Source: Chloroflexota bacterium
GTDB lineage: Bacteria > Chloroflexota > Dehalococcoidia > UBA2247 > RBG-13-53-26
Direction of reading: 5' to 3'
Length of the DNA: 32,709 bases
Assembly: GCA_016876035.1 (NCBI GenBank)
Contig: VGOE01000022.1
Coordinates: 1 to 32,709 of the forward strand
A program made the translations under genes and the position numbers. The notes beneath the pieces are model-generated. The model searched no databases and had not been told where the DNA came from. It was given only the letters and a program-made list of their open reading frames with translations. The number at the start of each line of letters is the position of its first letter. The stretch's first letter is position 1. Positions 15,509 through 27,241 of the stretch are shown here, piece by piece.

Positions 15509-15796
15509 GAGGGCCAGCGTATTGCGGTGGGTTACGCCCGCCCAGGGCGGACTTCACCCACCCTACCTGTCATTGCGAGGTCGCCCCAGGCGACCGCGGC
15601 AATCCCAGGGCGGTGGGGCACCACCCCCCGTGGGCAGAGCGCGCTCTGCCCCTACATTCCCCCCTTACACGCCACGTGGATTCCCGCTTCCGCGGGAATG
15701 ACAGCGGAATTGGTGGGCCGAGCCCACCCTGCGAGGCGGACATTACAAATTTCTTACAAAAAAGGTGAAAGGGCAGCAAGACGCCTGAAAAACCCC
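15509..15796. other. Repeat-rich intergenic region
   Basis: No coding sequence is supported. 15569-15733 is a chain of dispersed repeats: a type A segment in reverse orientation (15569-15629, GTCATTGCGAGG to CACCACC), a perfect 20-bp palindrome GGGCAGAGCG/CGCTCTGCCC (15632-15651), a type C copy (15678-15705) and a type B copy (15704-15733). Open frames across this stretch are repeat translations. Confidence 0.65.
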
Positions 15797-16332: not shown

Positions 16333-16800
16333 ATGATGAAAAAGAAATTTCTTGGCATACCAGTATTGGCTATCATTTGTGTCCTGGTGCTGGCGCTGAC
16401 TGCGGGGATAGCCTATGCCGCGATCGGCCTGGTTCCCGGTGGTGGGAGTGCGTACATCACCGTTACCGAAGCCATCGAGTGTGCGGGAGCGGCGAGCGCA
16501 GGAAGCTGGGATGACGATCTTGGGATATGGGTCTTCGAGGCAGACGAGCTTTTCCCGAATCAAGTGGAGACCTTGTGGCTGGAGCTGACCAATAACGGAC
16601 CAATGGATGTCAAGGTCACCGTTGCCGTGGGTTCAGCCCTGGATTACTCCGGTTGTGATCTTTCGATGACGGTTGGCGGTGGCCCCAGTCAGACCATTGT
16701 GGTGCCAGCGGGGGACGTGGCCACGGCCACTGTGCACCTTTGCACCGGCAACAGCGTTGTTCCCGGCCTGTACATGTACTTCATAAGCGTGACCCGCTAA
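16333..16800 (+). CDS. Small secreted protein of unknown function
   Basis: A 155-residue exported protein. A signal peptide is clear: K3-K5, hydrophobic core 6-26, cleavage after A29 (AYA). The mature part (about 126 residues) is beta-rich and Thr/Val-rich, with phrases such as TLWLELTNNGPMDV and VTVAVGSALD that suggest a beta-sandwich (Ig-like) fold. It has three cysteines in the mature protein. GGAGG precedes the ATG by 12 bp. A second ATG directly follows the first. I do not recognise a family. It is the first of a set of exported proteins reaching to 27241 and has an unusually long leader. Confidence 0.72.
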   Translation: MMKKKFLGIPVLAIICVLVLALTAGIAYAAIGLVPGGGSAYITVTEAIECAGAASAGSWDDDLGIWVFEADELFPNQVETLWLELTNNGPMDVKVTVAVGSALDYSGCDLSMTVGGGPSQTIVVPAGDVATATVHLCTGNSVVPGLYMYFISVTR

Positions 16801-17483: not shown

Positions 17484-19298
17484 GTGAGAAAAAGAAGTCT
17501 TTTTGCAGTAATGGTGCTGCTGCTGGTGCTGTCTATCTGCCTGGTAGCGGCGCCGGTGCAGGCCGCCACCTATGCCGTGACGGTCCAGGTGCCAGCCACC
17601 GGCGGCGGCATGGTCTCGGCCAATGAGTGCAACATGGCGGTGAAAGTCTCGGTGAAGAACCTCGAGGGGACTAACACCGTCACCATCTCGGCCATCACCC
17701 GCAATGCCGACTGCACCTTCACCGGGTGGACGACCACTGCGGGGACCATCGCTGACGCCACGAACCCCACCACTACAATAGAGGTGACCGACAAGGCCAC
17801 GGTGACGGCGGGCTTCACCCCACCGGCGAACTCCACTCTGACCGTGAAAGCGAAGGCGGTGGGCAACGCCACCGTGGGGACGGTCAAGATCGTGGAAAAT
17901 GGATTGACCACCATAACCAGGCCCACGGGGACAAAGGTGACCATCGAGGCCACCCCGTTCAACAGCGACAACGTCTTCTTCGGCTGGAGCTACAACATGG
18001 GCCTGGCCGCTCCCAGGAAGGCAGTGAGCAAGGTCACCATGTGCGGCACGGCGGAGGAAATAGTAGCCTACTTCGTCCCGCTGACCACCAGCCAGTTGAA
18101 GCTGGCCTGCTTCTGGCAGTATGAGGTTTGCACAGGGCGGCAGGTGGACATCCGCACCCACACCAAGGTGGCGGAGTCAGGCGGCGTGTTCACCAGCATC
18201 CTGACCATGGACAAACCGGAGATCAGCTACTCCAACGACGGCACTTCGACGCTGGGATTCCCGGTAGGGGCGTCCAGGCTGGTGCTGGAGAGCGGCAGTC
18301 TACAGACCAGGTTCTGGAAGGCCACCAACATGTACAACGGCAGGGATGTCAGGTGTGACCTGTGGTACTGGGACAGCACCACTAGTCCCTACTACTACGG
18401 CGGCCCAGCAGCACCCACCCAACCCCCGGTCATGATTGGCATGCCGGTGACGGTCTACACCGACGGCTTCTCGGGGGGGACACCCATCGCACTGACGGCG
18501 GACGCCAATAATGGCCAGAGGGACGTCGAGGTGGCCACTGTCAGCGGCTTCTTCCCCGGTGAGACCGTGACCATCAGCGACAACACACCCCTGTCAGAAA
18601 CCTGTGTCATCGCTGCGGTGGGCGCCAGCAGGCTGGTGGTTGCTAACGTCGCCCCTGGTGTCCTGTCACCCGTCACGGTGTTGCAGGGGGGCGGGTATGC
18701 TATAAATGACGACGTCACCCTGGCCGATTTGACGGGCACTTCGGAGGTATGCAACATTTTTAGCATAATCCCCAACTCCGGACCGGGGGTTGACACCCTG
18801 ATCATGTCTGACGTGGCCAACTCATACTTCGCAGCGGCTTACCCCTCGGTTACCCTGAACCGCTTGACCATGGACATGAACCTGACCAACAACTACACGG
18901 TAGCCAAAAGCGCTCAGGTCGCCAAACCGGGTGCCGCCGGCCTGCCGTACACCCTGGGGAAGACCTTTAACTATGTGGAGCACCAGGGCATCTTCTACAA
19001 GATCCCGCTACAGGTCACCGTGATGGACAAAGAAATGGTGCGCGTACCGGCCGGCCTGTTCGAATGCTGGAAGGTGGTCACCAAGACCATGGACATGACG
19101 GGAGCGTTCACGGTGCTGTACCGCATAGACTGGTACTCCGAGAAGGTGAAGATGTCGGTGAAGTCCGAGTACTACATCTACGCCCAGCACATGGATAGCG
19201 CCAATCCCACCACGCTTGCCCTGCAGCGCGTCCAGACCGAGGTACTGAAGAAGTACAAGATCAACCCGACATCGGTAGCAGGACAAGGAGGCTGGTAG
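17484..19298 (+). CDS. Secreted protein with two B-repeat-like domains and a beta-rich C-terminal region
   Basis: A 604-residue exported protein. The signal peptide (residues 1-27, cleavage after VQA) is followed by two divergent InlB-type B-repeats (about 29-112 and 118-194), recognised by FTGW near the middle and DKATVTAGF / EEIVAYF at the ends. About 195-330 is a region rich in Tyr and Trp. Residues 335-450 contain two related modules (VTISDNTPLSETCVI and VTLADLTGTSEVCNI), apparently an internal duplication. The C-terminal part has VRVPAGLFECWKV (about 518-530), a phrase shared with the protein at 22743 (ITVPAGTFNCHKV). It starts at a GTG with GGAGG 10 bp upstream. Likely a surface or extracellular protein; ligand unknown. 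Confidence 0.8.
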   Translation: MRKRSLFAVMVLLLVLSICLVAAPVQAATYAVTVQVPATGGGMVSANECNMAVKVSVKNLEGTNTVTISAITRNADCTFTGWTTTAGTIADATNPTTTIEVTDKATVTAGFTPPANSTLTVKAKAVGNATVGTVKIVENGLTTITRPTGTKVTIEATPFNSDNVFFGWSYNMGLAAPRKAVSKVTMCGTAEEIVAYFVPLTTSQLKLACFWQYEVCTGRQVDIRTHTKVAESGGVFTSILTMDKPEISYSNDGTSTLGFPVGASRLVLESGSLQTRFWKATNMYNGRDVRCDLWYWDSTTSPYYYGGPAAPTQPPVMIGMPVTVYTDGFSGGTPIALTADANNGQRDVEVATVSGFFPGETVTISDNTPLSETCVIAAVGASRLVVANVAPGVLSPVTVLQGGGYAINDDVTLADLTGTSEVCNIFSIIPNSGPGVDTLIMSDVANSYFAAAYPSVTLNRLTMDMNLTNNYTVAKSAQVAKPGAAGLPYTLGKTFNYVEHQGIFYKIPLQVTVMDKEMVRVPAGLFECWKVVTKTMDMTGAFTVLYRIDWYSEKVKMSVKSEYYIYAQHMDSANPTTLALQRVQTEVLKKYKINPTSVAGQGGW

Positions 19299-19415
19299 GA
19301 ACCTGAGTCGTAGTCCTTCACAGCGGTGAAGGAGGGCATGCGGAGAGAATTGGTTTTGCCATAGGGAAGAAAGGGATGGATTGATGGAGGGACGGGGGCA
19401 GGTGAACCCTTTTCC

Positions 19416-19504
19416 GTCATTGCGAGCGGAGCGAAGCAATCTCGTGGGGTGGTGCCCCACCGCCCTGGGATTGCCGCGGTCGCCTAGGGCGACCTCGCAA
19501 TGAC
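19416..19504. repeat. Type A dispersed repeat, full copy
   Basis: An 89-bp element from GTCATTGCGAGCGGAGCGAA to CTCGCAATGAC, with complementary ends and two inner palindromes (GGTGGTGCCCCACC-like and GGTCGCC/GGCGACC). It is followed by a smaller hairpin (ATTCCGTA/TACGGAAT, about 19518-19538). REP-like elements of this sort occur in many environmental bacteria, from memory. No gene is found in 19299-19692. Confidence 0.75.
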
Positions 19505-19558
19505 GTGGTAAGACGTCATTCCGTACTTGATACGGAATCCAGGGGGGTGGAGGGAGGG

Positions 19559-19652
19559 GATTCCGGCTTTCGCCGGAATGGGGGAATGATGGTGGGGCGA
19601 TGCCCCACCGCCCTGGGATTGCCGCGGTCGCCTGGGGCGACCTCGCAATGAC
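19559..19652. repeat. Type C-like hairpin and partial type A repeat
   Basis: GATTCCGGCTTTCGCCGGAAT forms a hairpin (about 19559-19579). From 19591 to 19652 comes the right half of a type A element (GGTGGGGCGATGCCCCACC to CTCGCAATGAC), missing its left end. It stands 41 bp before the next B-repeat gene. Confidence 0.7.
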
Positions 19653-19692
19653 ATTGGGATGTTGATATGATGGGGCCAGCCAGGAGAAGCAA

Positions 19693-21813
19693 GTGAGAAA
19701 ATGGCTACTTTTGCTCGGAGCCCTGATCGTCCTTCTGTGCATCATCCTCGCCGTCCACGGGTGCGGCGGCGGAGGTAAGAAGGAGTACGACCTCACTATT
19801 GCGGCCAGCCCCACGGCCGGGGGCACCATCTCCCCCGCCCCTGGCGTTTATACCTTTGATAGGGGCACAGTGATAACTATTGTGGCCACCCCGGCCCCCG
19901 GCTGGGAGTTCACTGGCTGGAGCGGCAGCGCCTCTGGCACGAGGCCCAGCATCACGGTCACTATGGACAGCGACAAGCTGGTGACCGCCAACTTTGCCAA
20001 AATAGTACCCACCTATACCCTGACCACAGAAAAGGTGGGCAAGGGCACCGTCCGCCCTCTGATAAGCCGGCGTGAATACGATGAGGGAACGGCGGTCACC
20101 CTGACCGCCACCCCCAGGGCCGGCTGGAAGTTCGTCAACTGGACGGGAGATGTGGCCAGCCCCACCTCCTCCTCCACCACCGTCACCATGGACGCCGACA
20201 AGAGGGTGACGGCCAACTTTGTCGAGATACCGACCTATACCCTCACCATAGCCAAGACTGGTAAGGGGGCCATCCGTCCGCTAATGAGCCGGCGCAAGTT
20301 CGACGCCGGAACGGTGGTCACCTTGACTGCTATTCCCAGGACCAACTGGAAGTTCGTCAACTGGACGGGAGATGTGGCTAGCCCCTCGTCCGCCAGCACC
20401 ACCGTCACCATGGATGGCGACAAGACGGTGATCGCCAACTTCGTGGAGAGACCGATCTACACCCTGACCATAGCCAAGGTGGGCAAGGGCACCACCACGC
20501 CGTCAGTGAAAACCCACATCTCTAGGGAGGGTCACGTGATGACCATCACCGCCCTGCCCACTGCGGGCTGGAGGTTCGGTGGCTGGAGCGGCGACGTCTC
20601 GGGCACCACCGCTAGCATCGAAGTTACCATGGACGCCGACAAGAGAATAGTAGCTAACTTCGTGGAGCTACCGGTGTATACCCTGACCATAGCCAGCGAG
20701 GGCAAAGGCAGCACCAAGCCGTCAGCCAAGACACGCATCTACAGGCAGGGCGAGGTGGTGACCGTCACCGCCCTGCCGGCTACGGGCTATAAGTTGCACA
20801 ACTGGAGCGGCGATGTCTCCGGCACCACGGCCAGCATCCAGGTCACCATGAATGCCGACAAGAGGGTGACGGCCAACTTTGTCTCGCTGGTGACCTATAC
20901 GCTGACTATGGCGGCCAGTCCAGAAGACGGCGGCGCCATCACCCCCGCCGCCGGAGTATCCGCCAGGAGCGGGGGAGAGAAGGTCAAGATCACCGCTATC
21001 CCCGCCCCAGGCTGGAAGTTCGATGGCTGGAGCGGCGACGTGGCCAAGCCCACCTCGGCCGGCACCACCGTCACCATGGACGCCGACAAGACGGTGACGG
21101 CCAACTTTTCTCCGCTGGTGCGCTACACCCTGACCATGGCGGTAGATGATCCCTCTCATGGCACCACCACCCCACCGCCGGGACCATCCAGCCGGTATGG
21201 GGGGGAGAAGGTCAAGATCACCGCTGTTGCCGCCCCTGGCTGGGCCTTTGTCAACTGGAGCGGCGACGTGGACGACCCCACCAAGGCCAGCACCACCGTT
21301 ACCGTGAGCAGCGACAAGACGGTGACCGCCAACTTCGCTAAGACCTACACGCTGACCCTGGACATTGATCCGGAGGAGGGCGGCAACACCACCCCGAAGG
21401 AGGGTGAGTATGCCTACGTGGGAGGGACGGTAGTCACTATCACCGCCAAACCGAAAGCTGGCTGGAAGTTCGTGGAGTGGACAGGGGAGATATACACGGT
21501 AGATGATCCCGAGGCGGCCACTACCACCGTCGTGGTGGATGGCGATTACTACATCACCGCCAACTTCCGGGAGATAGAGAAGTACACCCTGCTCATATAT
21601 GTTGATGGCGAAGGCACCACCACCCCGCCAGCGGAAAGAGAGCAGACCTACGTGGAAGGGACGGTGGTCAATATCATCGCCAAACCGAAGAGTGGCTGGA
21701 AGTTCGTGGAATGGATAGGTGACGTGGACACGGTGGAGGATGTGGAGGCCGCCAATACCACCATCACCATGGACAGCGATTGCCTTATCCTGGCCATCTT
21801 CGAGCCGATATAG
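19693..21813 (+). CDS. Exported lipoprotein-like protein made of nine B-repeats
   Basis: A 706-residue protein. The N-terminus is MRKW, then a hydrophobic core, then VHGC with C24 as a possible lipid-modified cysteine (His at -2 makes the lipobox imperfect), followed by GGGG. From residue 32 to the end it is nothing but divergent InlB-type B-repeats: I count nine of about 73-79 residues. Each runs YTLTI...GT...P, then GxVVTITAxPxxGWxFxxWxGD, then TTVTMDxDKxVTANF. Repeats 1-7 have short or no inserts; 8 and 9 carry a 4-6-residue insertion (YTVDDPEAATT). The GTG start has AGGAG upstream. No C-terminal anchor or enzymatic domain is visible, so a structural stalk or adhesive role at the cell surface is the likeliest reading. 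Confidence 0.82.
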   Translation: MRKWLLLLGALIVLLCIILAVHGCGGGGKKEYDLTIAASPTAGGTISPAPGVYTFDRGTVITIVATPAPGWEFTGWSGSASGTRPSITVTMDSDKLVTANFAKIVPTYTLTTEKVGKGTVRPLISRREYDEGTAVTLTATPRAGWKFVNWTGDVASPTSSSTTVTMDADKRVTANFVEIPTYTLTIAKTGKGAIRPLMSRRKFDAGTVVTLTAIPRTNWKFVNWTGDVASPSSASTTVTMDGDKTVIANFVERPIYTLTIAKVGKGTTTPSVKTHISREGHVMTITALPTAGWRFGGWSGDVSGTTASIEVTMDADKRIVANFVELPVYTLTIASEGKGSTKPSAKTRIYRQGEVVTVTALPATGYKLHNWSGDVSGTTASIQVTMNADKRVTANFVSLVTYTLTMAASPEDGGAITPAAGVSARSGGEKVKITAIPAPGWKFDGWSGDVAKPTSAGTTVTMDADKTVTANFSPLVRYTLTMAVDDPSHGTTTPPPGPSSRYGGEKVKITAVAAPGWAFVNWSGDVDDPTKASTTVTVSSDKTVTANFAKTYTLTLDIDPEEGGNTTPKEGEYAYVGGTVVTITAKPKAGWKFVEWTGEIYTVDDPEAATTTVVVDGDYYITANFREIEKYTLLIYVDGEGTTTPPAEREQTYVEGTVVNIIAKPKSGWKFVEWIGDVDTVEDVEAANTTITMDSDCLILAIFEPI

Positions 21814-21865
21814 AGACAGGGGGGGAGGGCGTGGGTGGGTGGGGTGAGGGCGTGGGGAAGGGGGT

Positions 21866-22101
21866 GGATTCCTGACTTTAGACGGGCAGGTTGGGAAACC
21901 TGCCCTACAGGGTATAATGCAGACAATAGATCTTTTTTCCGTCATTGCGAGCGGAGCGAAGCAATCCCGTGGGGTGGTGCCCCACCACCCTGGGATTGCC
22001 ACGGTCGCCTGTGGCGAACTCGCCATGACACGGAGAACGAAATGTAGGGGTGGGCTGCGCCCACCCTGGTGGGGGGAGGTGGAGGGAGGGGTGGAGGAAG
22101 T
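21866..22101. repeat. Composite repeat unit 1 (236 bp)
   Basis: Order of parts: GGATTCCTGACTTTAG, a GGGCAGGTT/AACCTGCCC hairpin (type D), TATAAT (21913-21918), a type A element (about 21942-22028), then a GTAGGGGTGGGCTGCGCCCACC hairpin. It is the first of three near-identical units in tandem. The type D hairpin places TTGGGA 16 bp before TATAAT. Confidence 0.8.
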
Positions 22102-22317
22102 GGATTCCTGACTTTAGGCGGGCAGGTTGGGAAACCTGCCCTACAGGGTGTAATGCAGACAATAGATTCTTTTTCCGTCATTGCGAGCGGAGCGAAGCAA
22201 TCCCCGCGGGGTGGTGCCCCACCACCCTGGGATTGCCACGGTCGCCTGTGGCGAACTCGCCATGACGCGGAGAACGAAATGTAGGGGTGGGCTGCGCCCA
22301 CCCTGGTGGGGGGAGGC
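22102..22317. repeat. Composite repeat unit 2 (about 216 bp)
   Basis: Same order of parts as unit 1 with few base differences (AGGCGGGC for AGACGGGC; TCCCCGCGGGG for TCCCGTGGGG), but with a shorter GGTGGGGGG tail. Open frames in these units on both strands are repeat translations, not genes. Confidence 0.8.
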
Positions 22318-22482
22318 GATTCCTGACTTTAGGCGGGCAGGTTGGGAAACCTGCCCTACAGGGTATAATGCAGACAATAGATCTTTTTTCCGTCATTGCG
22401 AGCGGAGCGAAGCAATCCCCGCGGGGTGGTGCCCCACCACCCCGGGATTGCCGATCCTTCCCGCGGGGCGGATCGCAATGAC
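22318..22482. repeat. Composite repeat unit 3 (truncated, 165 bp)
   Basis: Starts as the others, but its type A element (22392-22482) has a different right end (GATCCTTCCCGCGGGGCGGATC for the GGTCGCC palindrome) and the terminal GTGGGCTGCGCCCACC module is missing. The rest of the spacer, 22483-22678, shows no gene. Confidence 0.75.
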
Positions 22483-22678
22483 AAATCAAGGCGGGGGCGG
22501 GGGGCTAACCTTTTGGGTGGTTTTTCGTTTATAATAGGGACATCAGCACAAGGCCAGGCCTGGTGGCGCTGGGACTACGAAGGGGGGTGAACAAGGTTAT
22601 GACATAGGGAACTTAGAGGCAGCAGGTATCCCGTGGCAGTTTTTTCAATCTTAATTCAACTCAGTCATGGGACCCCTC

Positions 22679-22707
22679 TTGCGCAAAGGGCCAAGTGCTG
22701 GTATAAT
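22679..22707 (+). promoter_or_regulatory. Promoter of the seven-B-repeat lipoprotein gene
   Basis: TTGCGC at 22679-22684 and TATAAT at 22702-22707 with a 17-bp spacer. Predicted start near 22714, giving a short leader with AAAGGAGG (22722-22729) before the ATG at 22743. Confidence 0.65.
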
Positions 22708-22742
22708 GTGGCCAAATTTCAGAAAAGGAGGTGCACAGGACA

Positions 22743-25223
22743 ATGAGGAAATGGGTATTTCTCCTGGTAGCTCTCTTGCTTCTTCTGACGCCGCTCATGG
22801 GCGCTTGCGCCGAGAAGAAGTACGAGCTGACCATCTCGGTCAGCCCCGGAGGGACGACCAGTCCCGCGGCTGGGACCCACAAGTACAAGAAGGACGCCAC
22901 GGTGACTATCGCCGCCACTGCGAATACCGGTTACGTGTTCGACAAGTGGAGCGGCGACGCCTCCGGCACCGCCACCACGGTGACGGTGACCATGACCAAG
23001 GACAAGAGCGTCAGGGCCGAATTCAAGAAAATCCAGTATACCCTGACCATAGCGGTTAGTCCCACCGGCGGCGGCACTGTCACCGCCAACCCGACGGGAC
23101 CCACCTACGATGCCGGAACGGCTGTCACCCTCACCGCTACGCCAGCCAGTGGTTACCAATTCGTTAACTGGACTGGCGACGCCACGGGCACCAGTGCTAC
23201 GGTGAGCGTCACCATGAGCGCCAACAAGACGGTGACGGCCAACTTCGCCACTACCACCTACACCCTGACCATGGCCAAGGTGGGCAGCGGCACCGTTGAC
23301 CCGGCGGTGGGCGCCCATACCAAGAATCCAGGAGAGGTGGTCAACCTCACCGCCACCCCCGATACCGGCTGGCGGTTCGACAAATGGACCGGCGATGTGA
23401 CTACGGTGGCTGATGTCAACGACCCCACCACTACAGTCACCATGAATGGCAACTACACCATCACCGCCAACTTCATCCAGCAGTTCACCCTGACCATAGC
23501 GGTCAATCCGGCGGGCGGCGGCACCACCAACCCGGCAGTGGGGACGTACACCAAGGATGCGGGAACAGTGGTCAGCATCACTGCCACCAAGGCCACCGGC
23601 TACGACTTCGTGAACTGGACGGGTGACGTCACGAGCACAAATGTCACCATTAGCGTGACCATGAACGCCAACAAGTCGGTGACGGCCAACTTCCAGGCGC
23701 TGGTGATGTACGACCTGACCATGGCGGTGGATCCCGCAGGCGGCGGCACCACCACCCCTGCCGGCACCACCAGCCATCTCGGCGGTGCGGTGGTCACCAT
23801 CACCGCTAACCCGGCTTCTGGCTGGTACTTCGTCCAGTGGACCGGTGATGCGGCTGACCCCAATTCCCCCACCACCACGGTGACCATGAACGCCAACAAG
23901 ACCGCCACGGCCCAATTCACCCAGACGAAGTCTACCCTGAACATATACGTTGATGGCCAGGGCAGCACCACCCCGGTCGCGGACACCGACCATGACTTCG
24001 GTAATGGGAGGCTGGTGGCTATCACTGCCACCCCGGCCAGTGGCTGGAAGTTCGTGGAGTGGACAGGTGACATATTCACGGTAGAGGATTCCGAGGCCGC
24101 CAGCACCACCATCCTCATGGACGGCGATTACGCCATTACCGCCGTCTTCGCCGAGCTGGAGACATTCACCCTGACCCTGGACGTTGATCCCGAAGACGCC
24201 GGCACCACCACCCCAGCAGTGGGCCAGGAATACCCCTACCTGGAAGGAACGGTAGTCACTGTCACCGCCACCCCCAAGACCGGCTGGCAGTTCGTGGAGT
24301 GGCTGGGTGACATAGACACCATGGCCAATCCCGACGCCGCCACCACCACCATCACCATGCTGGGCGAATACTTCATCATCGCCAGCTTCGAGGAGTATGT
24401 GGGCCCGACCTATCCGGGCGTGGGCAGCCAGTGGAAGTACAAGGTCACCTACGGAACCGAGACTACCAACTGGACATTGGACGTGACCGCAGCGGAGAAG
24501 GTGGCTGAAGTGACCGGCGAAAGCCTGGGCACGGGCGACGGCAGTAAGAAGGTGTTCGGCCCCGTGGCCAACATACCCATCCTGGCCAAGACGGAGATTG
24601 TGCGTGTGGCGGGCACCATCAGGGGCGCAACGGCCTACACCATGGACTACGGCGCTGGCACGGTAACCTTCGTTACTGCCCCAGCAGCAGGTCAAGCAGT
24701 GACCATAGACTACTGCACGTCAGCCGCCGGTGTGACGGGTGTGGACTGCTTCAAGGCAGTGACCTCCTACAGCGCTCCTCCAGCGCGTGTTGCCTCCGGC
24801 TACAGTGTAACCATCTCCGGCTCTGACACCTGGAAGAGCCAGCAGAACTTTGCCCAGATGAAGGCGGTAGCGGCCATCACCATGTTTGGATCGTCTACCA
24901 GAACCAACATGACCGACACTTATACCGGCACGCCCAACTTCTTCACTGTGAATGCCCAGTGGTCCATGGTTGAACTTGGGGTGCTGGCTCCGCCCGCGGC
25001 GCCGCCATATACTTCCAGCTACGACGTCAAGGTAGTGGGACAGGAAAGCATCACCGTGCCTGCGGGAACCTTCAACTGCCACAAGGTCGAGTACAGTCTA
25101 TTAGGCGTTGTGCAGAAGGTAGAGTGGTGGGCTCCCGAGGTGATGGGCTTTGTGAAGCAGGAAGACTTGAAGACTTACGCACAGGTGCAGACCATGGAGC
25201 TCACTTCCGTCACACTGGTGTAG
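22743..25223 (+). CDS. Lipoprotein with seven B-repeats and a C-terminal beta domain
   Basis: An 826-residue exported protein. The signal sequence MRKWVFLLVALLLLL ends in LMGAC, with C22 as the likely lipidated residue. Residues about 26-555 hold seven divergent InlB-type B-repeats (YTLTI...GWxFxxWTGD...TVTMxxxKxVTANF), repeats 3, 6 and 7 with the 4-6-residue insertion. Then comes a module starting VGSQWKYKVTY, followed by ESLGTGDGSKKVF...GTVTFVTAPAAGQAVTIDY, a phrase I recall from phage and surface proteins. The C-terminus has ITVPAGTFNCHKVEY and WWAPEVMGFVKQE, close to that of the protein at 17484. I start at ATG 22743, since AAAGGAGG and the MRKW match with the 19693 protein support it over GTG 22731. 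Likely an anchored surface protein; ligand unknown. Confidence 0.84.
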   Translation: MRKWVFLLVALLLLLTPLMGACAEKKYELTISVSPGGTTSPAAGTHKYKKDATVTIAATANTGYVFDKWSGDASGTATTVTVTMTKDKSVRAEFKKIQYTLTIAVSPTGGGTVTANPTGPTYDAGTAVTLTATPASGYQFVNWTGDATGTSATVSVTMSANKTVTANFATTTYTLTMAKVGSGTVDPAVGAHTKNPGEVVNLTATPDTGWRFDKWTGDVTTVADVNDPTTTVTMNGNYTITANFIQQFTLTIAVNPAGGGTTNPAVGTYTKDAGTVVSITATKATGYDFVNWTGDVTSTNVTISVTMNANKSVTANFQALVMYDLTMAVDPAGGGTTTPAGTTSHLGGAVVTITANPASGWYFVQWTGDAADPNSPTTTVTMNANKTATAQFTQTKSTLNIYVDGQGSTTPVADTDHDFGNGRLVAITATPASGWKFVEWTGDIFTVEDSEAASTTILMDGDYAITAVFAELETFTLTLDVDPEDAGTTTPAVGQEYPYLEGTVVTVTATPKTGWQFVEWLGDIDTMANPDAATTTITMLGEYFIIASFEEYVGPTYPGVGSQWKYKVTYGTETTNWTLDVTAAEKVAEVTGESLGTGDGSKKVFGPVANIPILAKTEIVRVAGTIRGATAYTMDYGAGTVTFVTAPAAGQAVTIDYCTSAAGVTGVDCFKAVTSYSAPPARVASGYSVTISGSDTWKSQQNFAQMKAVAAITMFGSSTRTNMTDTYTGTPNFFTVNAQWSMVELGVLAPPAAPPYTSSYDVKVVGQESITVPAGTFNCHKVEYSLLGVVQKVEWWAPEVMGFVKQEDLKTYAQVQTMELTSVTLV

Positions 25224-25789: not shown

Positions 25790-27241
25790 GTGAATAAACG
25801 TATGCGACTGGTACTGGTAGTTGTCTTGAGCCTGATTGTGTTAGCAGCGGGCGTCGTGGTGGGGTGCGGCGACGACAAAGAGAAGGACCTGGTCAAGTGC
25901 ACCTTCAAACTGTCTCAGTATTTGAGGGGCGCTACAGGCGACTTCGATCATGCCACCGTAAACCAGGCGGCCGAGGGCGCGGGCGATGGTGGCGTCAACA
26001 CCATGTTCATGGCGATGACGCTTACTAATCTGCCCAAGGGCACGAGATACGACAACCTGACGGCTGCGCAGAAGGATGCTGTGCAGGCAGCAGCAGCGGC
26101 CTTCTTCGACTCGGTGCAGGCGGCCATAGATGCAGATGACGGTCCGACCACCACCAATCCGGCCTATGTGACGCTGGCTGGGCTTCAGGGTATGACCTGG
26201 TTCGGACTGTGGGCCGATCCCTTTTCACCGTTTCACAACCGCCCTGTGCAGGCTTTCTTCAAGGTCTTGCCTGACCCGGCGGGCAGAGGAAGCAAGGTAG
26301 AATACCTGGATAAGAAGGCCAAGGCAGCCTACGGAGGCAAGGAATACGCCCAGATCACAGCGGAGCAGAGAGCTACTCTTGATGCCGAGCTGACAGCCTT
26401 CCTGGCCGAGATGGAGAAGGATGTAGCCGCAGCCAATGCTGCAGCAGTGGCCGCAGGCACGGCAGAGATCAGTAAGCCAGAGCATGCCGCTGCCTTCGCG
26501 GCGGCGATGGCCGCGTACTTTGCAGTCCTGGGAGGCGGTGGGACGTCAGCAGAAGCAGAGGCAGCTTTCACAGCAGAGCTAGTGGCTAACTGGCCGGCCG
26601 ATTACGCCGCCATGGCCGGAGCGGGCCAAGCGGCAATGATGGCAGAAGTTATGGCCAGTGAGGCCTTTGCAGTCCTCAAGGGGCCGGCCGTAGCGCCCAA
26701 CGGGACTTATGCCGCCGAGGCCTGGAAGACCGACGTGAGCGCCCCCAATAACGTGCACCCGGTGCAGGCCTTCAAGAGATGGATGGTCAAGCCAGCGCTG
26801 ATAGGGTTGATGGGCATGGGCCTCCTGATCCAGGTGAGCACGGCTGAGTTCAGCTTCACCATCACCAACCCCAATGACTACCTGGTCGGCATTGAGAGCA
26901 TTGACCTGAACGTCTCCTGCAACGCCAACGGCTTTGGCTACTACCCCGCTCGCGATGTGGACGCCGCCAAGATGGCACTGCACGACACGGTCTGGGTGCC
27001 CGCTAAGAGCAGCGTCGAGCTGCACCTGACAGTGCCGATAAAGACCCTGGACATGCTCACTTGGCTGATCGTGGGGGCGGGCTTCGACTCCACCACCGCC
27101 GGCACCTATGCCTCCGATGTGTGGAGCAGAATGAAGGCCGGGACAGCCGTATGGGACGTGACCCTTGTCACTTCGCAGTCCAGTCCGGAAGGGCAGAATA
27201 TCCCGGACGCCACCTACACGCTGAAGTGGACTCCGAGCTGA
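25790..27241 (+). CDS. Lipoprotein with an Ala-rich helical region and a LEA-like C-terminal domain
   Basis: A 483-residue exported protein. The signal peptide has a lipobox VVVGC (C26) followed by GDDKEKD, typical of a lipoprotein linker. Residues about 30-170 include FHNRPVQAFFKV; 180-310 form an Ala/Glu-rich helical stretch (AAANAAAVAAGTAEI, AAMAAYFAVL) likely coiled or helical-bundle. The C-terminal 140 residues (FSFTITNPNDYLVGIESIDLNV..., then VWVPAKSSVELHLTVPI) recall the LEA14/WHy beta-sandwich. HNRPVQAF (about 146-153) and VHPVQAF (about 323-329) suggest an internal repeat of the PVQAFxK motif. The GTG start has AAGGAGG 6 bp upstream. Three promoters precede it, so strong or multiply controlled expression is likely. 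Function unknown. Confidence 0.78.
   Translation: MNKRMRLVLVVVLSLIVLAAGVVVGCGDDKEKDLVKCTFKLSQYLRGATGDFDHATVNQAAEGAGDGGVNTMFMAMTLTNLPKGTRYDNLTAAQKDAVQAAAAAFFDSVQAAIDADDGPTTTNPAYVTLAGLQGMTWFGLWADPFSPFHNRPVQAFFKVLPDPAGRGSKVEYLDKKAKAAYGGKEYAQITAEQRATLDAELTAFLAEMEKDVAAANAAAVAAGTAEISKPEHAAAFAAAMAAYFAVLGGGGTSAEAEAAFTAELVANWPADYAAMAGAGQAAMMAEVMASEAFAVLKGPAVAPNGTYAAEAWKTDVSAPNNVHPVQAFKRWMVKPALIGLMGMGLLIQVSTAEFSFTITNPNDYLVGIESIDLNVSCNANGFGYYPARDVDAAKMALHDTVWVPAKSSVELHLTVPIKTLDMLTWLIVGAGFDSTTAGTYASDVWSRMKAGTAVWDVTLVTSQSSPEGQNIPDATYTLKWTPS

Follow-up and report, generated by a model that had tools for sequence, protein, structure and literature searches.

Three adjacent genes for exported proteins with tandem divergent InlB B-repeats in a Chloroflexota genome, and a probable spacer role for the repeat arrays

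The window analysed in this study is the whole of contig C22 (32,709 bases), taken from a draft genome of 2.53 Mb in 159 contigs that is 97.7% complete, and it carries three adjacent forward-strand genes, here called p1, p2 and p3, whose predicted exported products contain tandem B-repeats. The p1 gene (17484..19298) starts with a GTG codon, has aggaggt upstream, and encodes 604 residues, comprising a Sec signal that ends in VQA and lacks a lipobox, two degenerate B-repeats (17568-18077; PF18998 E 4e-5) and a C-terminal region (18078..19295) with a DUF3108-like end, matched at 19017-19178 (PF21347 E 8e-8) and containing VPAGLFECWKV. The p2 gene (19693..21813; 706 residues) encodes a probable lipoprotein consisting of nine B-repeats and nothing else (19786-21810, boundaries set by hand; PF18998 E 8e-135), and a tblastn search of 21701-22740 returned no remnant of a head domain 3' of it. 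The p3 gene (22743..25223; 826 residues from the ATG) encodes a putative lipoprotein with seven B-repeats (22821-24389, boundaries likewise by hand; PF18998 E 4e-100) and a C-terminal head (24390..25220), a DUF3108-like or YmcC-like beta domain (PF21347 E 2e-8) that contains VPAGTFNCHKV and is interrupted by an inserted DUF2460-like beta module of about 79 residues (24501..24737). The start of p3 is most likely the ATG at 22743 and not the GTG at 22731, because the latter overlaps the Shine-Dalgarno-like aaaaggaggtg.

On one side p1-p3 are flanked by a gene for an exported 155-residue protein with an N-terminal signal (16333-16800), and on the other by a gene for a 483-residue lipoprotein (25790-27241), which brings the number of genes for exported proteins between pfkB and dnaE to five. 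In genome G004, dnaE adjoins a relative of the 483-residue lipoprotein. No orthologous p1-p3 cluster was found in nine genomes of the same family; in G003, pfkB is followed by apparent clpP, tig and aspS genes, with no exported cluster.

With reference to the curated cut-off of PF18998 (divergent InlB B-repeat, Flg_new_2; 23.6 bits), the repeats of all three proteins are members of this family, as p1 scores 23.9, p2 439.5 and p3 328.4 bits. The Pfam scan delimits two weak stretches in p1, nine in p2 and seven in p3, and these agree with the boundaries set by hand (2, 9 and 7 repeats of 72-88 residues each), so the counts given in the initial annotation for three adjacent exported genes hold. 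In p2 and p3 the repeats recur every 72-79 residues (about 216-240 nt). Nearly all of the 73-position model is covered by each of the 16 p2 and p3 repeats and, weakly, by the two of p1, and departures from it amount only to ordinary sequence divergence; the leucine-rich repeat domain of the internalins is not attached. The p1 repeats are degenerate, being 24% identical to each other and 18-36% identical to all the other repeats. Of the 19 PF18998 matches in the genome, 16 lie in p2 and p3, far more than chance would give; a 664-residue lipoprotein on contig C6 accounts for two of the remaining three and a 104-residue lipoprotein on contig C49 for the third. The earlier description of one all-repeat gene and two genes with C-terminal beta domains was also confirmed, since p2 ends at its ninth repeat, p1 and p3 carry DUF3108-like ends, and the VPAGxFxCxKV phrase common to p1 and p3 falls within the PF21347 match of both. 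The loop insertion described as mixed between proteins does exist, but it measures 3-4 residues rather than 4-6, and its five carriers cluster, with four in one clade and the fifth, p3_r3, beside them in the DNA tree.

Judging from the sequences, p2 and p3 have leaders of the lipoprotein type and p1 appears to be secreted without a lipid anchor. The putative lipobox of p3 (PLMGAC) is ordinary; that of p2 (AVHGC) is unusual in having His at position -2. The putative lipidation site of p2, Cys 24, lies 8 residues ahead of repeat 1, and the p3 array begins 5 residues past its putative lipidated cysteine, so that in both proteins the array would start almost at the membrane. The MRKW start common to both lipoproteins proved to be real and specific: across the 2.53-Mb genome the leader pattern RTGARRAARTGGNTNYTN was detected at three sites (control, 0), which are the starts of the B-repeat proteins p2, p3 and the C6 lipoprotein. 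This restriction to B-repeat genes points to common descent of the leader together with the first repeat.

Structure prediction had been proposed as a check. In the AlphaFold2 model of three p2 repeats, three compact beta domains were obtained (mean pLDDT 96.3), with a pTM of 0.69 that says little about the mutual orientation of the repeats. A fold search with the repeat model returned stalk domains from adhesins and pilins of Gram-positive bacteria as well as tandem SHIRT domains, and the model aligned with the InlB B-repeat (2y5p) over 63 residues at Z 5.4, 2.9 A and 21% identity, a score that other beta domains equal; all the fold matches have Z under 8, a range in which chance resemblance is possible and for which the tool warns that perhaps only a common arrangement is indicated. 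A comparison of the repeat profile with PDB sequences gave zero matches. Flg_new repeats have already been treated as stalk domains (PMC9210967). The Pfam scan found no known adhesive domain beside the stalk repeats and the leaders of lipoprotein type.

The heads of p1 and p3 score 32.9 and 35.1 bits against PF21347 (DUF3108_like; cut-off 27), in matches that cover only positions 131-190 or thereabouts of 199. According to their depositions, the solved relatives of this end domain are 3fzx, described as exported and YmcC-like in fold, and 4fvs, a putative lipoprotein; the fold of E. coli YmcC (GfcB) is LolA-like (PMC8592465). For the p3 head, AlphaFold2 gave a model with a mean pLDDT of 63.8 that is poor except in the inserted module and the last hairpins, and its match to YmcC-like structures (Z about 6) is no more than suggestive. 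In comparison with YmcC/GfcB-like lipoproteins (3fzx, 4fvs, 2in5), the p1 and p3 heads agree in their C-terminal third and in the VPAGxFxCxKV motif, and the p3 head also in its suggested fold, whereas the p3 head differs from them by the DUF2460-like insertion and the B-repeat stalk. The insertion, which resembles modules of phage distal tail proteins, is absent from the homologous head in G039. Across the class, DUF2460-like modules of about 70 residues are inserted in-frame into unrelated exported proteins, namely propellers and this DUF3108-like head (24501-24737; also L065, L066, L067, L069, L070, L072).

The relatives of these heads supply the strongest argument on the role of the arrays, which is comparative. 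In G039, a homologue of the p3 head (159 residues at 47% identity) is preceded by a lipoprotein leader and then by a (TP)n stretch of about 90 residues, with no B-repeat, and in G149, another member of the class, five copies of the head sit on Pro/Thr/Glu linkers, including (EPT)n (L113, L115-L118), with some fused to an esterase (carboxylesterase) or to a propeller-like domain. As the same heads are carried either by a B-repeat array or by a Pro/Thr linker, the array is most readily understood as a spacer, and we consider it probable (roughly 0.7) that the B-repeat arrays are stiff spacers that hold other domains off the membrane; surface exposure, rod shape and spacer function are all inferred here. 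The initial annotation had spoken of surface stalks or adhesins, and it is the stalk part that these relatives make probable, with the adhesin reading as a rival. The C6 lipoprotein (L046, 4050-6044, reverse strand) combines an MRKW-type leader and its two B-repeats with a propeller-like domain homologous to the one in G149 (E 1e-11), and the C49 protein (L047, 5081-5395, forward strand) consists of a leader and a single repeat. More tentatively, and with the odds rather against it, the leader and first B-repeat may form a transferable anchor-and-spacer cassette joined to unrelated heads (DUF3108-like, propeller-like or none), in which arrays and Pro/Thr linkers would be interchangeable, a modular surface-protein kit where only spacer length and head matter.

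The origin of the arrays was investigated with trees built from the 16 p2 and p3 repeats, at the protein and the DNA (codon) level, and with AU tests. Strict grouping by gene was rejected (AU p 0.0045 for protein, 0.00017 for DNA). The repeats p2_r8 and p2_r9 form a clade with p3_r6 and p3_r7 (support 97/95 in protein, 100/98 in DNA), and p2_r1 joins p3_r1 in the DNA tree (89/88), so that the cross-gene clades consist of the array ends, the first and the last repeats; within p2, the neighbours r2/r3, r4/r5 and r6/r7 are sister pairs. For the last two repeats the tree joins p2_r8 to p3_r7 and p2_r9 to p3_r6, a crosswise arrangement, and collinear pairing was not rejected (p 0.13-0.22). Adjacent repeats are 43-73% identical in protein; in DNA, most pairs of repeats are 50-65% identical and the maximum is 79%, so the repeats have not been homogenised. 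A PHI-type test on all nucleotides gave low p values at short windows, probably through intra-codon correlation, and was rerun on third positions and amino acids, where neither the full set of 16 repeats nor p3 by itself gave a signal and p2 gave a borderline one (one of nine third-position tests, p 0.002). After correction for 120 pairs, the stretches over which synonymous codons are identical did not exceed chance length. The shared array ends and the adjacent sister pairs of p2 are accounted for by duplication of a multi-repeat gene followed by local tandem duplication, and exchange is not needed. The single-repeat phylogeny suggested as a check thus went against strict grouping by gene, as foreseen, but in a pattern that fits gene and tandem duplication, not exchange.

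The sequences therefore favour arrays that arose by old duplications over ongoing repeat exchange, which is not supported, and intergenic conversion has left no clear sign. That p1-p3 belong to a gene family was upheld, given the leader-plus-repeat cassette and the array ends common to p2 and p3; that this family grows by repeat exchange was not, in view of the array-end clades, the identity ceiling and the recombination tests without clear signal. The exchange idea would make the cluster a contingency locus, where recombination adds, removes and swaps repeats among the three genes, and array length and composition vary by strain in a Periscope-like manner. The failure of the repeats to group strictly by gene, the crosswise (though collinear-compatible) pairing of the last repeats, the borderline mosaic signal in p2 and the recently duplicated tandem elements between the genes would agree with such a locus, yet DNA identities this low, codon runs within chance, the silence of the tests for all 16 repeats and inside p3, and the sufficiency of gene duplication for the shared array ends leave it very improbable. 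Hardly more credible is the proposal that each gene took its PF18998 repeats separately from a class-wide pool: such repeats do occur in many unrelated architectures of the family and class, and those of p1 are very divergent, but the leader common to p2, p3 and the C6 lipoprotein is unique to them within the genome, and the array ends of p2 and p3 group together. For p1, taken singly, recruitment may have been independent.

The remaining rival concerns function and holds that the arrays are themselves adhesins, each B-repeat binding a glycan or a protein and repetition providing avidity. Its clearest case would be p2, with repeats alone and no head; in InlB, moreover, strand beta2 and the adjacent loop of the B-repeat form a proposed protein-interaction groove in which inactivating mutations lie (PMC8900821), and work on methanogen genomes lists Listeria-Bacteroides repeats as adhesion factors (PMC7883539). 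By analogy with that groove, the repeats could bind ligands rather than only act as spacers. The replacement of the array by (TP)n or (EPT)n linkers under the same head in relatives speaks against the adhesin reading, as does the Pfam scan, in which no carbohydrate-binding family was detected in p1-p3, and we regard it as unlikely, though less so than the two proposals on origin. The spacer role thus stays the preferred interpretation.

Among known systems, the internalins of Listeria, InlB included, share the repeat family, the probable fold (2y5p) and the exported context, whereas p1-p3 lack leucine-rich repeats, have long arrays and possess a leader of lipoprotein type instead of a C-terminal surface anchor. 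An identity as internalins was rejected, as the Pfam scan showed no LRR family up to E 1. Fibrillar adhesins and fibrillar adhesin-like proteins with Flg_new stalks (PMC8286594, PMC9210967) likewise use tandem beta domains as a stalk that separates an anchor from a terminal domain, but no recognised adhesive domain is found here, and the anchor is N-terminal, hence the head C-terminal. The Periscope Proteins (SasG, Rib, Sgo_0707; PMC8201768) also have a stalk of tandem folded domains; they are characterised by highly identical tandem DNA repeats, in contrast with the repeats of this study, which are not near-identical in protein (adjacent pairs) or in DNA, and whose best pair reaches 79% in nucleotides. 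In ordinary multidomain proteins, adjacent domains usually have less than 50% identity (PMC8201768).

On the preferred reading, p1-p3 form a small family of exported proteins whose tandem PF18998 repeats would provide a stiff spacer. In p3, the anchor would sit at the membrane, followed by the array, with the DUF3108-like/YmcC-like head at the far end and so held off the membrane; in p2, with anchor and spacer and no separate head, the repeats, or the outermost repeat alone, would do any binding; and p1 would be secreted without a lipid anchor, its two repeats decayed and its head related to that of p3. The family itself probably originated by duplication of a leader-plus-repeats gene, with local tandem duplication within the arrays and with different heads attached or lost. 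The cluster adds a multi-repeat B-repeat case from a poorly known lineage, and it sets up a natural comparison: the genome studied here has on a folded array a head domain that other genomes carry on a Pro/Thr linker. The comparison supports B-repeat arrays as spacers.

Other features were also observed in the window. A complete 16S rRNA gene lies at the start of the contig (235-1746); among plasmid records it matched Thermomicrobium roseum best, at 78.6%, which points only weakly to Chloroflexota. Long antisense open frames run opposite the repeat arrays on the reverse strand at 20722-22026 (434 residues) and 22719-24695 (658 residues) and probably result from repetitive codon use. An interspersed element with the core GCGAGCGGAGCGAAGCAATC, on which no relevant paper was found, is present as three tandem copies between p2 and p3 (21854..22452; 237-bp unit, 96% matches) and as two copies between p1 and p2 (19410..19653), with a further one at 15568-15630. 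The element occurs in at least 20 places in this genome, and shorter matches to its core are found in several relatives.
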